Part shown: piece by piece, positions 18,968 to 34,579 of the stretch
Position numbering within the stretch: position 1 is the stretch's first letter
How the letters are laid out: each line of letters opens with the position of its first letter
Assembly (NCBI GenBank): GCA_030524715.1
Contig: JAUNGB010000049.1
Coordinates: 1-39,486, forward strand
Reading direction: 5' to 3'
From: Eubacteriales bacterium
GTDB lineage: Bacteria > Bacillota > Clostridia > Lachnospirales > Lachnospiraceae
DNA length: 39,486 bases
Translations under genes and position numbers: made by a program
Notes under the pieces: model-generated
What the model saw: only the letters and a program-made list of their open reading frames with translations
Databases searched by the model: none
What the model was told of the DNA's origin: nothing

Positions 18968-18976
18968 CTTACCTTT

Positions 18977-19016
18977 GTTATTCTTAGTTATTCTTAGTTA
19001 TTCTTGATTATTTTAG
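18977..19016. repeat. 10-bp tandem repeats behind the XRE gene
   Basis: Four units of 10 bases, GTTATTCTTA, GTTATTCTTA, GTTATTCTTG, ATTATTTTAG, lie between the XRE stop and its terminator. The partial second copy has three and a half units with a slightly different sequence at 29785-29820. The unit length is one helical turn. Confidence 0.85.
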
Positions 19017-29703: not shown

Positions 29704-29858
29704 GGGCATGGCTTTGGAATTATGGGGGTATTCTTTTGTTTTCGGATAAAAAAACTGCCGGATATCACCGACAGCCTTTCCTTTGTTATTCTTTGTTATT
29801 CTTTGTTATTTTTGGTTATTAACGATCACTGTGCATTCGGCAGCCATTTTGTTTTCTT

Positions 29859-29941
29859 TTACACAGGCTCCTCCACTCCCAGCAACGATTCCACTTCCAC
29901 GCCCAAAACCTTCGCAAACACAAACAGCTCATAATCCGCCA
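29859..29941 (-). pseudogene. Truncated XRE gene, 3' end only
   Basis: The last 26 codons match residues 58-83 of the XRE protein at 19071-19322, with one amino-acid difference (L to P near the end) and otherwise synonymous changes, then TAA. The wider copy, with 10-bp repeats and terminator hairpin, spans about 29755-29941 against 18946-19153. The match stops abruptly at 29941, exactly where the type III toxin-antitoxin promoter region begins. No start codon or HTH remains. Confidence 0.9.
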
Positions 29942-29995
29942 TAATTTATAACCCAAGAAACCCAAAAAATTTCTTAAATTTCTGAATCATTTCTC

Positions 29996-30024
29996 TTGAA
30001 TAAAAGCTCACTTTCGCATATAAT
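29996..30024 (+). promoter_or_regulatory. Promoter of the type III antitoxin RNA
   Basis: TTGAAT (29996-30001), a 17-base spacer, and a perfect TATAAT (30019-30024) are followed by a start region near 30031. It drives the antitoxin repeats and, by read-through of the terminator, the toxin. Confidence 0.85.
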
Positions 30025-30030
30025 ATAAGA

Positions 30031-30215
30031 AAAAGAAGAACTTTCTTCTTTCCTTCGCTAAATGATGACGAGTGACGGTTCCGACTCGTCGGTAAAATAA
30101 AAATTGACCGGGCGAAGATGATGTGTGACGGTTCTGACACATCGGTAAAATAAAAATTGACCGAGCGAAGCGAAATCCCGGCGAGGTTGACTCCAACTGG
30201 TCGACCTCGCTTTTT
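30031..30215 (+). ncRNA. Type III antitoxin RNA with two 53-nt repeats
   Basis: After a short leader hairpin (about 30034-30051), two 53-base units lie head to tail at 30064-30116 and 30117-30169, differing at six positions. Each has a 7-bp hairpin stem: GACGAGT/ACTCGTC in unit 1 and GATGTGT/ACACATC in unit 2. Two base pairs changed on both sides together, so RNA structure is conserved. A second short stem CGGT/ACCG follows in each unit. An intrinsic terminator ends the RNA before the toxin gene. In described systems (ToxIN, CptIN, TenpIN) the toxin cleaves such a precursor into single repeats, which then bind and inhibit it. Confidence 0.88.
30181..30215 (+). terminator. Leaky terminator between antitoxin RNA and toxin gene
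   Basis: Stem GCGAGGT/ACCTCGC (30181-30187, 30204-30210) with an inner GAC/GTC and T-run 30211-30215. In type III systems partial read-through here sets the toxin level. The 5' arm GCGAGGT recurs at 30221-30227, covering the toxin ribosome site. Confidence 0.9.
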
Positions 30216-30235
30216 ACGTTGCGAGGTATCGAAAA

Positions 30236-30709
30236 ATGGAATATGATTCAGAATTATCACTTCTATCATCTAAATTTACCCAGGACTACTCTCCTGCTAC
30301 ATATCCTGAGTTGCTGCATAAACACGGACGTCCTTATACCTGCCTGCTAATTGATTCGCATGATGATTACTTTATTTGTGTGCCATTCCGCTCGTCTATC
30401 GGACACAAAAACGCTTTCATGTTTACCGGAACTACACGGTCACAGAAAATGAAATCCGGTCTTGACTATTCCAAAATAGCAATCATCAAAAACATTGATT
30501 ACTTCGATTCAACCACAACGGCTCTTATCGATCAGGATGAATATGCTGAAATGATGAGAAATCTTCCAACCATTGTTCAGGAAGCAAGCGATTATGTGGA
30601 TACATACATCAACCATGTCAACGGAACCGCGCCTATGCATCCACGTGCATTTTCACGAAAATATCAATATTCCACTCTGCCTTATTTTCACAATATCATG
30701 GGAATCTAA
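30236..30709 (+). CDS. Type III toxin, ToxN/AbiQ-like endoribonuclease (CptN-like)
   Basis: 157 residues, ribosome site GCGAGGT nine bases before the ATG. Small soluble protein with alternating strands (PYTCLLIDSHDDYFICVPFRSS) and a C-terminal helical part (LPTIVQEASDYVDTYINHV). Length, gene order (promoter, repeats, terminator, toxin) and the strand-rich N terminus fit the ToxN/AbiQ group; I judge the CptN branch, named after Coprococcus, as nearest, from memory. It would cut cellular and antitoxin RNA when the repeats run short, halting growth or blocking phage. Catalytic residues cannot be assigned by eye. The assignment rests mostly on the RNA context, which is strong. Confidence 0.82.
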   Translation: MEYDSELSLLSSKFTQDYSPATYPELLHKHGRPYTCLLIDSHDDYFICVPFRSSIGHKNAFMFTGTTRSQKMKSGLDYSKIAIIKNIDYFDSTTTALIDQDEYAEMMRNLPTIVQEASDYVDTYINHVNGTAPMHPRAFSRKYQYSTLPYFHNIMGI

Positions 30710-30786
30710 ACGTCTGCTTTTGCCGTAGGATTTTTCACCCCTCTCACGGAGGTTTTCCATTCCTCATTCCATTTGAAATTTATCTT

Positions 30787-30834
30787 AGTAAGTCAAACTT
30801 CCCACACCAAATGGTGTGGGAAGTTTGACTTACT
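30787..30834. other. Perfect 22-bp hairpin between toxin and araD ends
   Basis: The arms 30787-30808 and 30813-30834 are perfectly complementary, with a 4-base loop AAAT. It lies between the convergent toxin and araD stops, four bases from the latter. No real T-run follows on either side, so it may be a shared terminator of unusual form, an RNase III site, or a mobile-element scar. Confidence 0.85.
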
Positions 30835-32657: not shown

Positions 32658-33392
32658 TCATGCCGCAGTACAAGCTTCCAAAAAATCTTCGTAGAATCTG
32701 GCAAAACTAATAGGGCACTTTTCCTTTAAAGTATCAGTTTCCGTTTCTTTTGCTATTTCTATCAAAATATCCCTGTCTGCTTCTTTATGATACTGTTCCA
32801 AAACCCGCCTCAGATAATTCTTAGGATAATCACTGGACGGATTATTTTTTTCACCCCATATCAGTTCCGGTTTGGAAGGCAGTTTTACCTTTTCCGGTTC
32901 TTTTCCAAAGCATTTTTTATACGCCATTTTATCAGATAACAGCCAGCATTCTATCATTTTTAACGATATCATCGGAACGCCTGTCCAACCTATATTCCCT
33001 ATTCTCTGCAGCCCTTGTATAACATCAGAATATATTTGCTCATAGTACTTTTTGCAGTCTGTTTCCTTTGTATTTTTCCCGATCATGATCCGATCAGTAT
33101 CACAATAAAATACTCCTGCAGTATATCCATTTTCTTTTGCATAAAGCGAAAACCTAAGAGCCGGAATTCCTTTTCCACTGAGATTTCTCATATGTCTTGC
33201 ACCAAGCTTTATCCTGTTTTCTCCGTCAATTACTTTCTTTTCAATATACCCAATTTCCAAATCAACCTGAAATTCCTCTGCACACTTTCGAATCAGATAA
33301 ACAATCGGTCCCGGAAGCCATTCTCCTGTCGGAGACTGCCATCCATAGTCAGTGGGACCTTCCCCATAGACAAGTATTTTCATTTTTTTCAT
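32658..33392 (-). CDS. TOPRIM-like/DUF4276-like partner of the ATPase
   Basis: 244 residues. The N terminus reads ILVYGEGPTDYG, fitting the TOPRIM glutamate motif EGxTD (E11, D15), and VFYCDTDRIM gives the D-x-D motif (D98, D100). MIECWLLSD and a C-terminal SFARFYEDF are like DUF4276/RloB-type proteins. It should be a metal-dependent nuclease. The first ATG shares one base with the TGA of the ATPase gene (TGATG), with GAGGAGG inside the ATPase end, so the pair is tightly coupled. Pairs of this design include OLD, PARIS and AbiL-type phage defence. The exact family is not certain. Confidence 0.72.
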   Translation of the reverse strand: MKKMKILVYGEGPTDYGWQSPTGEWLPGPIVYLIRKCAEEFQVDLEIGYIEKKVIDGENRIKLGARHMRNLSGKGIPALRFSLYAKENGYTAGVFYCDTDRIMIGKNTKETDCKKYYEQIYSDVIQGLQRIGNIGWTGVPMISLKMIECWLLSDKMAYKKCFGKEPEKVKLPSKPELIWGEKNNPSSDYPKNYLRRVLEQYHKEADRDILIEIAKETETDTLKEKCPISFARFYEDFLEACTAA

Positions 33393-34579
33393 CAGGCATC
33401 CTCCTCAGCCAGCAATATCTTTATAATATCATTGTTGCTCATATTCATAAATAGCTCTCCGGGATATAAATAACGCATTTTTTCATTTAATTCAGGAATT
33501 TCTGCCAATGAATTGCATTTACAGTTTCCAAATTGCGGCTCTCGATACATATACCGGATGCTCTCCTTTTCAACATAATCCAGAAATATGGGACTATGGG
33601 TAGTTACAATCATCTGACTGCTCTTTCTGTTACAATTATCCTCAAGAATTCTAACTATTTTCTCTGCATAATCCAGATTAATACCATTTTCAATCTCATC
33701 AAGCAGCATCATTCCTCTCTTATCCATTTCACAGATCGCCAGAAAAGCCAACAGACGAAGCGTACCGTCGCTCATATTTTTAGACTCAATCATCAATGAT
33801 TTCTTTCTATACTGTTCCTCTGTCACCAAGTGTGTCCATCCCGGTTTTCCTTTGGTCCGTGCATCCACATTTACAATTTTCTCTCCCAAAGCCAGCTTGA
33901 TTTTATCAATAAATTCTGCTTTCTGCTTCTGATTCATGGATTTTACAAAGGATGGCAGCTTCTCGCCTGCATTTCCTATGGTATTTACATCCCCCCGACT
34001 GGAAAGCCTCATCTTCTCCGGTGAAAGCATTTCAAAGGAGTCTGAATTAACCAGAAACATTTTTAAGGCCTGTAACACCGGAAATTCCGTAACGTCCATC
34101 ATTTTCAGCACAGAGGAATTTGTTTGGAGTTTTGGAAGTGTCACCGCTTCCTGCACTGAACCATCCCAAATAAAGCCGCCCTTTGACTGTGTATACGACA
34201 ACAGCACCTTTTCCTTGCCTTCTCCGTAAATCTCTACTGTTTCATGCGATAATTCCATAATATTCTTTTGAGTATAGGCCAAAATCTGTATTTCCCAACG
34301 TACCGGCAATAATTCGTTCTTTATAATGAGTTCCAGATTACAAATAATCGTAATTTTGGGGGATTTCTGCATTTGAGATTTCAAATCCGACACTTTCCAT
34401 CCCCGTCTCTCCAGAATAACCCCAAAATCCTCCTTTGCCATATTAGCTATAAAATCCAGTGCCTGCAGAACCGTGCTTTTGCCGGACATGTTATTGCCTA
34501 CAATAACGGTAAATGATTCTAATTCCATCTGAAAATTATTTAACGCCTTAAAATTATCCACATAAATACTTTTAATCAT
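33392..34579 (-). CDS. SMC/OLD-like AAA ATPase of a probable defence pair
   Basis: 395 residues. Walker A GNNMSGKST (28-36), ABC-type signature MSDGTLRLLAFL (269-280), Walker B MMLLDEIENGI (290-300) and switch VTTHSPIFLDYV (325-336). The insert between has no long coiled coil; it is strand-rich (residues 75-260). This is the AAA_15/AAA_21 type that partners with TOPRIM nucleases. GGAGGTGA precedes the ATG. It probably senses an invader signal and licenses the TOPRIM-like protein. An RNA or DNA repair role is the alternative. Confidence 0.85.
   Translation of the reverse strand: MIKSIYVDNFKALNNFQMELESFTVIVGNNMSGKSTVLQALDFIANMAKEDFGVILERRGWKVSDLKSQMQKSPKITIICNLELIIKNELLPVRWEIQILAYTQKNIMELSHETVEIYGEGKEKVLLSYTQSKGGFIWDGSVQEAVTLPKLQTNSSVLKMMDVTEFPVLQALKMFLVNSDSFEMLSPEKMRLSSRGDVNTIGNAGEKLPSFVKSMNQKQKAEFIDKIKLALGEKIVNVDARTKGKPGWTHLVTEEQYRKKSLMIESKNMSDGTLRLLAFLAICEMDKRGMMLLDEIENGINLDYAEKIVRILEDNCNRKSSQMIVTTHSPIFLDYVEKESIRYMYREPQFGNCKCNSLAEIPELNEKMRYLYPGELFMNMSNNDIIKILLAEEDA

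Follow-up and report, generated by a model that had tools for sequence, protein, structure and literature searches.

A probable chromosomal TenpIN type III toxin-antitoxin cassette from Lachnospiraceae and a proposed comparative secondary structure for its antitoxin RNA

The locus described here lies in the window, a 39,486-nt stretch of contig JAUNGB010000049.1 from a gut Eubacteriales bacterium (assembly GCA_030524715.1, family Lachnospiraceae). With a probability of roughly 0.9, it is a type III toxin-antitoxin cassette of the TenpIN family, chromosomal and ~0.8 kb long, in which an antitoxin RNA would restrain the endoribonuclease TenpN. The family is named after the TenpIN system of Photorhabdus luminescens, and the module is a new member of it. 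The gene order, the family, the predicted fold, the two stems (S1 and S2) of each antitoxin repeat, a 5' hairpin, a leader-tail helix (statistically) and the differing neighbourhoods of related loci were all computed here. Overall, these comparative data provide a concrete, testable secondary structure for a TenpIN antitoxin.

The window exhibited the gene order of a type III system, with promoter-like hexamers followed by two 53-nt repeats, a terminator and a 157-aa open reading frame (Table 1). An initial annotation, made from the letters of the window, had proposed these parts in this order, and every one of them was recovered in place; its description of the module as ToxIN/CptIN-like held with respect to type III but not with respect to family, which by HMM was TenpIN. 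The toxin matched the NCBIfam equivalog NF047358.1 (TenpIN) with 168.6 bits relative to a cut-off of 90, such that toxin residues 10–154 were aligned to positions 1–140 of the 141 in the profile, and in this search for ToxN, CptN and TenpN profiles, which the annotation had suggested, it was the sole type III model matched. NF047358 matched 0 of 14 control genomes, and it also matched six plasmid relatives, genome locus L044 and two viral-contig relatives in a scan that left out plasmid locus L054 and in which L057, one of the six on plasmids, fell below the cut-off. The toxin had no match in Pfam, none in phage records at E 1e-5 and nothing credible in sequence searches of the PDB with either the protein or profile A1, while its PADLOC matches were weak (CARF4, E 0.0014; AbiTi, E 0.0089). 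An Rfam scan of the whole window returned no family at its gathering score. The host genome contained a single toxin match and just these two repeat units at ≤3 mismatches.

Table 1. Coordinates of the cassette and its features in the window.
Feature	Position	Strand	Basis or remark
C-terminal remnant of an Xre-type regulator gene	29863–29945	-	Left cassette edge, within 20 bp
Likely extent of the mobile cassette	29960–30753	+	Shared with L002 at 92.8% DNA identity; genes fetched on either side are different there
Sigma-70-like promoter, TTGAAT-17-TATAAT	29996–30024	+	10 of 12 consensus positions
5' leader hairpin of antitoxin RNA, AAAGAAGA(ACTT)TCTTCTTT	30032–30051	+	Stem persists, sequence differs in relatives
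Closing helix, 5' strand CTTCGCT	30053–30059	+	Pairs with 30164–30170
Antitoxin repeat unit 1, 53 nt	30064–30116	+	TRF, pair counts, descriptor search
Unit 1 stems	S1 30067–30073/30084–30090; S2 30076–30080/30106–30110; A-rich loop 30091–30105	+	
Linker between pseudoknots, GGCGAAGAT	30111–30119	+	Putative place of toxin cleavage, by analogy with ToxI and CptI, which are processed to single units
Antitoxin repeat unit 2, 53 nt	30117–30169	+	TRF, pair counts, descriptor search
Unit 2 stems	S1 30120–30126/30137–30143; S2 30129–30133/30159–30163; A-rich loop 30144–30158	+	
Closing helix, 3' strand AGCGAAG (tail of last unit)	30164–30170	+	Pairs with 30053–30059
Intrinsic terminator between antitoxin and toxin	30180–30211	+	13 pairs plus T run
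GAGG	30223–30226	+	9 nt ahead of tenpN ATG
tenpN toxin gene, 157 aa	30236–30709	+	NF047358, E 9.1e-50; predicted fold

The AlphaFold model of the toxin (mean pLDDT 91.6, pTM 0.87; input of 18 sequences) exhibited, by Foldseek, the ToxN/MazF-like endoribonuclease fold that is a feature of TenpIN membership. Foldseek returned 237 PDB matches at E 10, the best of which was a MazF (E 6.1e-3), and nothing at E 0.001 or below; thus, kinship of fold rests on match probabilities and on TM-scores near 0.5. For AbiQ (4glk), ToxN (2xd0) and CptN (4rmo) the probabilities were 0.99, 0.94 and 0.90 and the TMq values 0.53, 0.51 and 0.45, respectively, and all three ranked by E-value after the best MazF and among more MazF chains. 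A lack of ToxN/AbiQ likeness in structure prediction, which had been named beforehand as grounds for giving up the toxin-antitoxin reading, did not occur. Among 19 homologues, invariant residues included K29, R32, Y34, P50, R52, H57, D77 and K80, and position 53 was either S or T; some of these are active-site candidates by analogy with ToxN, the active site of which comprises Tyr29, Lys33, Thr52, Ser53 and Lys55 (PMC5086642). Taken together, the TenpIN HMM, the AbiQ/ToxN/CptN-like model, the gene order and the identical placement of the array upstream of the toxin in relatives support the type III call.

TRF reported 2.0 copies of a 53-nt period at 30064–30170 with a score of 172, the highest of its 21 rows for the window, which corresponds to the tandem array of about two ~50-nt copies ahead of the terminator that characterises TenpIN. 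The suggestion that a 53-nt unit might mark a long variant was not borne out: TenpI has been described as 50 nt repeated 2.1 times (PMC12373285), and units in relatives ranged from 45 to 53 nt, with periods of 53, 52 or 51 nt and of 45–50 nt on plasmids. The two copies differed at 6 of 53 positions, four of which formed two compensatory pairs, and the exchange of GACGAGT/ACTCGTC for GATGTGT/ACACATC that had been read from the window was confirmed. The covarying stem is thus real, and the plain hairpin in which it had been placed is best replaced by one stem (S1) of a pseudoknot. Nested folding was not unusually stable for the single repeats (z -0.19 and -1.11) or for both together (z -0.82), so the structural case rests on covariation.

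Tabulation of 47 units from 26 loci revealed S1 as GACGAGT, GATGTGT, GTCCTGT, GAGGTGT or AACGAGT with a matching partner in 45 units, the exceptions being a unit of L015 with one mismatch and a unit of L025, where the toxin is broken. The units shared a near-constant loop, GACGGTTC(C/T)G, followed by GGTAAAATAAAAA and TGACCG. Across the 21 loci with two units, pairing of S1 was complete (100%) in each unit, and each S1 had changes on both sides in 4 of its 7 pairs. For the whole structure, sliding the partner positions lowered pairing from 97.1% to 23–44%. The covariation score of the whole structure was 0.210 relative to 0.080 in shuffled data and was reached by 0 of 500 shuffles, the count of pairs changed on both sides was reached by 2 of 500, and the count of further pair types was reached by 57 of 500, which is not unusual. 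Because the loci are related, these shuffle tests, like the permutation tests given below, come out too favourable. S1 was perfect in 45 of 46 units beside toxins labelled intact compared to 18 of 22 without, a weak difference (p 0.035).

Each unit was inferred to form an H-type pseudoknot composed of S1, a second stem S2 that joins the loop CGGUU to a downstream GACCG, and an A-rich loop. The complementarity of CGGTT to GACCG was absent from the earlier reading, and since S2 is invariant within the clade of the window it is uninformative there. More distant members (27–34% toxin identity) repeated the order S1-S2-S1'-A-rich loop-S2' with other sequences, namely GAGC/GCTC (L044, L027 and L060–L062), GGGC/GCCC in one unit of L059 and GAGC/GCTC in the other, GAGTT/GACTC and GGAA/TTCC in the pair of units of L052, GAAC/GTTC (L063), CCGGC/GCCGG (L055) and GAGG/CCTC (L056). 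It could be argued that the antitoxin consists of plain hairpins in which GACCG pairs locally with the GGU that follows the stem, as drawn by RNAfold, which forbids pseudoknots, and as permitted by the lack of S2 variation within the clade. However, this local pairing was missing, by inspection, from distant members such as L044 and L051, in which the complementarity between loop and downstream segment was kept with different sequences, and H-type pseudoknots are described for those type III antitoxins that had crystal structures by 2016 (PMC5086642), making plain hairpins very unlikely. A pseudoknot unit, as expected of a type III antitoxin, thus finds comparative support in S1 covariation and in S2 across subfamilies.

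The recurrence of the pseudoknot was also examined in 35 upstream sequences besides that of the window, drawn from 33 loci (two in both orientations), of which L015, L017 and L058 belong to its clade; the limits were looser than those of a strict descriptor that missed most plasmid loci. The best motif was unmatched by 20 shuffles in 22 of the 35 and matched by some in 8 (L015, L029, L031, L035, L050, L057 and the reversed L053 and L054, by 1–4 of 20), while the remaining 5 had none, including the forward strands of L053 and L054, the arrays of which are on the other strand. The best motif in L047 and L048 differed from that in L045 and L046 and may be a chance match. As a separate observation, L053 and L054 (Jeotgalibaca and Enterococcus plasmids) each carried, upstream of the toxin, a 45-nt TenpI-like array with a terminator-like hairpin, apparently on the opposite strand and divergent from the toxin, which departs from the textbook order; at both loci 2 of 20 shuffles did as well as the reversed-strand motif.

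Two further elements, both likewise absent from the earlier reading, appear to bracket the array. The 5' hairpin just after the promoter was reached by ≤5 of 100 mononucleotide shuffles in 20 of 23 loci labelled toxin-intact compared to 7 of 19 others. Beyond it, the leader is complementary to the tail that ends the last unit: across 26 loci the mean score was 17.2 for own tails relative to 15.0 for exchanged tails, a value reached by 0 of 2000 permutations, and examples included TCAGCT/AGCTGA in L028 and CTTCATCAT/ATGATGAAG in L018. Of the 21 two-unit loci, 14 had a leader that was a better fit to the last tail than to the first, 6 had one that fitted both equally well, and in 1 (L013) the last tail was the worse fit. 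On the alignment of these 21 loci the closing helix was 87.1% paired, a count that may understate it because MAFFT shifted the leaders; the permutation test was scored without alignment. For another 17 loci, comprising L058 and 16 distant members, the means were 14.0 and 12.1, and 2 of 600 permutations equalled or exceeded the former; this signal was carried by L056, L059, L061, L030 and L058, with nothing in many distant members.

Upstream of these elements, promoter-like matches were not enriched in the stretch examined (2 found relative to 2.5 expected by chance); thus, support for the promoter comes from conservation of TATAAT, which occurred exactly in the corresponding 32-nt stretch of 19 of 23 toxin-intact loci (window included) and 5 of 19 others. 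Downstream, the Rho-independent terminator expected ahead of a TenpIN toxin gene was present, and its stretch folded with z -4.59, equalled by 0 of 200 shuffles. Because the terminator sits between the repeats and the open reading frame, one could picture the repeats as a cis-acting attenuator or riboregulator, the pairing of which controls read-through, rather than as an antitoxin acting in trans. A possible antiterminator was indeed observed at the distant locus L061, where the leader GAGGGTACA is able to pair with a terminator-like hairpin through the 5' arm of the latter. In the window, however, 9 nt separate the end of the closing helix from the terminator, so that the two do not overlap, and type III arrays have been reported to show antitoxin activity when provided separately from the toxin (PMC4627078); we consider such cis-acting control extremely improbable.

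The ordinary TenpIN mechanism would, by analogy, apply at the window locus. One promoter would drive synthesis of the antitoxin RNA, with terminated transcripts giving an excess of antitoxin and read-through giving toxin mRNA and hence little toxin. The precursor, with its 5' hairpin, two H-type pseudoknots and closing leader-tail helix, would be cut in the linker by TenpN, which would then be held inactive by the pseudoknot units. Upon a shut-off of transcription, e.g. by phage, the short-lived antitoxin RNA would be exhausted, and TenpN, once freed, would cleave cellular RNA and arrest the cell. RNA processing, toxin inhibition, toxicity and abortive infection are thus expectations drawn from related systems, as processing and inhibition have been established for ToxN and CptN (PMC4627078, PMC5086642, PMC8860590), and the Photorhabdus TenpIN aborts phages (PMC5377504).

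A search of a contig collection with one genome per species for 84,980 species (per the tool description) identified 15 toxin loci with 66–94% identity, the closest in L002 (94%) and others in L003 (Blautia sp. An81) and L004 (a Lachnospiraceae MAG). The comparison of repeat number that had been proposed for relatives found two units with a period of 53 nt in 13 of these 15 and one unit in 2. Among 397 genomes of the family of the window, 28 had a toxin match at E 0.001 and 15 passed the cut-off, and among 398 genomes of the phylum the numbers were 8 and 2 (own genome included in both). None of the 15 toxin loci had, within flanks of ≤3 kb and at E 1e-10, the aldolase, dehydrogenase, sugar-epimerase-like, thioesterase, AAA or DUF4276 genes of the window. 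Conversely, the aldolase was matched in 36 of 41 same-genus genomes, and in all 19 loci fetched (L066–L084) the toxin was absent within ~1.5 kb of it. Fuller Xre-type copies of 83 and 80 aa were found beside the aldolase in L078, L068 and L075. Given the stretch shared with L002, the differing neighbours and the toxin-free aldolase loci, the ~0.8-kb cassette appears to be mobile as a whole.

Several other features of the neighbourhood were recorded. At 32661–34579 on the minus strand, ~2 kb from the cassette, genes for an AAA ATPase (395 aa) and a DUF4276-like protein (244 aa) matched the PADLOC candidate defence pair PDC-M25A/B (E 4.8e-79 and 5.5e-11). Between the toxin and the aldolase, a 20-bp inverted repeat with a short loop (30787–30834), perhaps a bidirectional terminator, occurred at a single place in the genome at ≤3 mismatches. 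Two arrays of a similar 10-bp unit were observed at 29781–29820 (CTTTGTTATT, four copies) and 18973–19016 (CTTAGTTATT, 4.5 copies).

Compared to complete modules, arrays lacking an intact toxin were at least as common in this one-family sample. A pattern search allowing ≤2 mismatches found the repeat motif of the subclade in 26 of the 397 family genomes, 11 with an intact adjacent toxin and 15 without (2 broken and 13 without a tblastn match to the toxin within 400 nt at E 0.01, three of which, L099, L103 and L113, had short toxin remains in a more permissive search). At least two units were present in 10 of the 11 compared to 4 of the 15 (Fisher p 0.0017) and, among 41 classified loci, in 22 of 23 toxin-intact loci compared to 4 of 18 without (p 1.1e-6), although toxin-based searches supplied most of the former and the pattern search most of the latter, and the loci share ancestry. 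The intact label of L016 is doubtful, as its alignment covers residues 1–61 only, and without it the counts were 21 of 22 and 4 of 18 (p 1.7e-6); L005 (143 aa) and L007 (148 aa) end early, and L015, cut by a contig end, was excluded from these groups and counted among the 19 others for the hairpin and TATAAT. The sole one-unit locus labelled toxin-intact was L017. These comparisons suggest that two units are nearly always kept where the toxin is intact. L113, which has a toxin remnant only, carried a hybrid unit (5' arm GACGAGT, 3' arm ACACATC), as deletion between two units would leave.

Such decay was common, with 5 broken toxins, 13 without any and 1 cut by a contig end among the 42 loci tabulated, and the low counts of TATAAT (5 of 19) and of a strong 5' hairpin (7 of 19) in the loci without a toxin labelled intact make most of these look like decaying relics. 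The window locus itself might be read in this way, with a silent or inactive toxin and an array that is a remnant, and the lack of the toxin at the 19 aldolase loci would fit. However, its open reading frame is in frame and of full length (157 aa), its toxin is as close to that of L002 as given above, and it keeps both units, S1, S2, the 5' hairpin, the closing helix and TATAAT, some of which are often missing where no intact toxin is present; a relic is highly unlikely here, and a complete TenpIN cassette remains the preferred reading. A broader proposal, which we put forward tentatively and think rather doubtful, is that TenpI, instead of consisting of separate units, is a capped, closed precursor (the 5' hairpin, then two pseudoknots enclosed by the leader-tail helix) with a co-selected pair of units, often differing in S1, that the RNA often lingers after loss of the toxin, and that some stand-alone arrays may confer immunity against incoming TenpIN modules. 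The same counts of 5 and 7 of 19 weaken the idea of conserved stand-alone immunity. In the best-preserved toxin-less arrays, L090 and L093, the antitoxin, promoter, 5' hairpin and terminator lay immediately ahead of a gene that is EcsC-like by a sub-cut-off Pfam match (E 6.4e-5); these records are 99.2% alike over 1.3 kb and are therefore nearly one observation.

Literature and structure searches placed the comparative structure in context. No solved TenpIN structure was found in PDB sequence searches or in a 2016 review, which, in the portion available, shows structures for ToxIN, AbiQ and CptIN only (PMC5086642). No title among the literature matches listed concerned a TenpI structure or type III orphan antitoxins, the founding 2012 paper being outside their scope. 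The comparative structure of a TenpI RNA may thus be new, while the unit length is ordinary.

Relative to the other type III families, the window module combined shared logic with distinct dimensions. ToxIN and AbiQ (PDB 2XD0 and 4GLK) have a similar toxin fold (TMq 0.51–0.53) and the common type III logic but differ in their 34–36-nt units and 2.8–5.5 repeats (PMC5086642); ToxIN membership was ruled out by the 53-nt units, the match to the TenpIN model only and the lack of a PDB sequence match to ToxN or AbiQ chains. CptIN of Eubacterium rectale (PDB 4RMO) likewise forms an H-type pseudoknot, in which the A-rich loop is long (PMC4627078, PMC5086642), and the fold of CptN is similar to that of the window TenpN (TMq 0.45), but its unit is 45 nt with a one-base L1 (PMC4627078); CptIN membership was ruled out by the 53-nt units, the TenpIN model match and the lack of a PDB sequence match to 4RMO. 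TenpIN, by contrast, resembles the window module in its toxin HMM family, its order of promoter, repeats, terminator and toxin, and its approximately two units of ~50 nt; within the family, the window subclade has a repeat sequence of its own, with a GACGGUUC loop and GGUAAAAUAAAAA.
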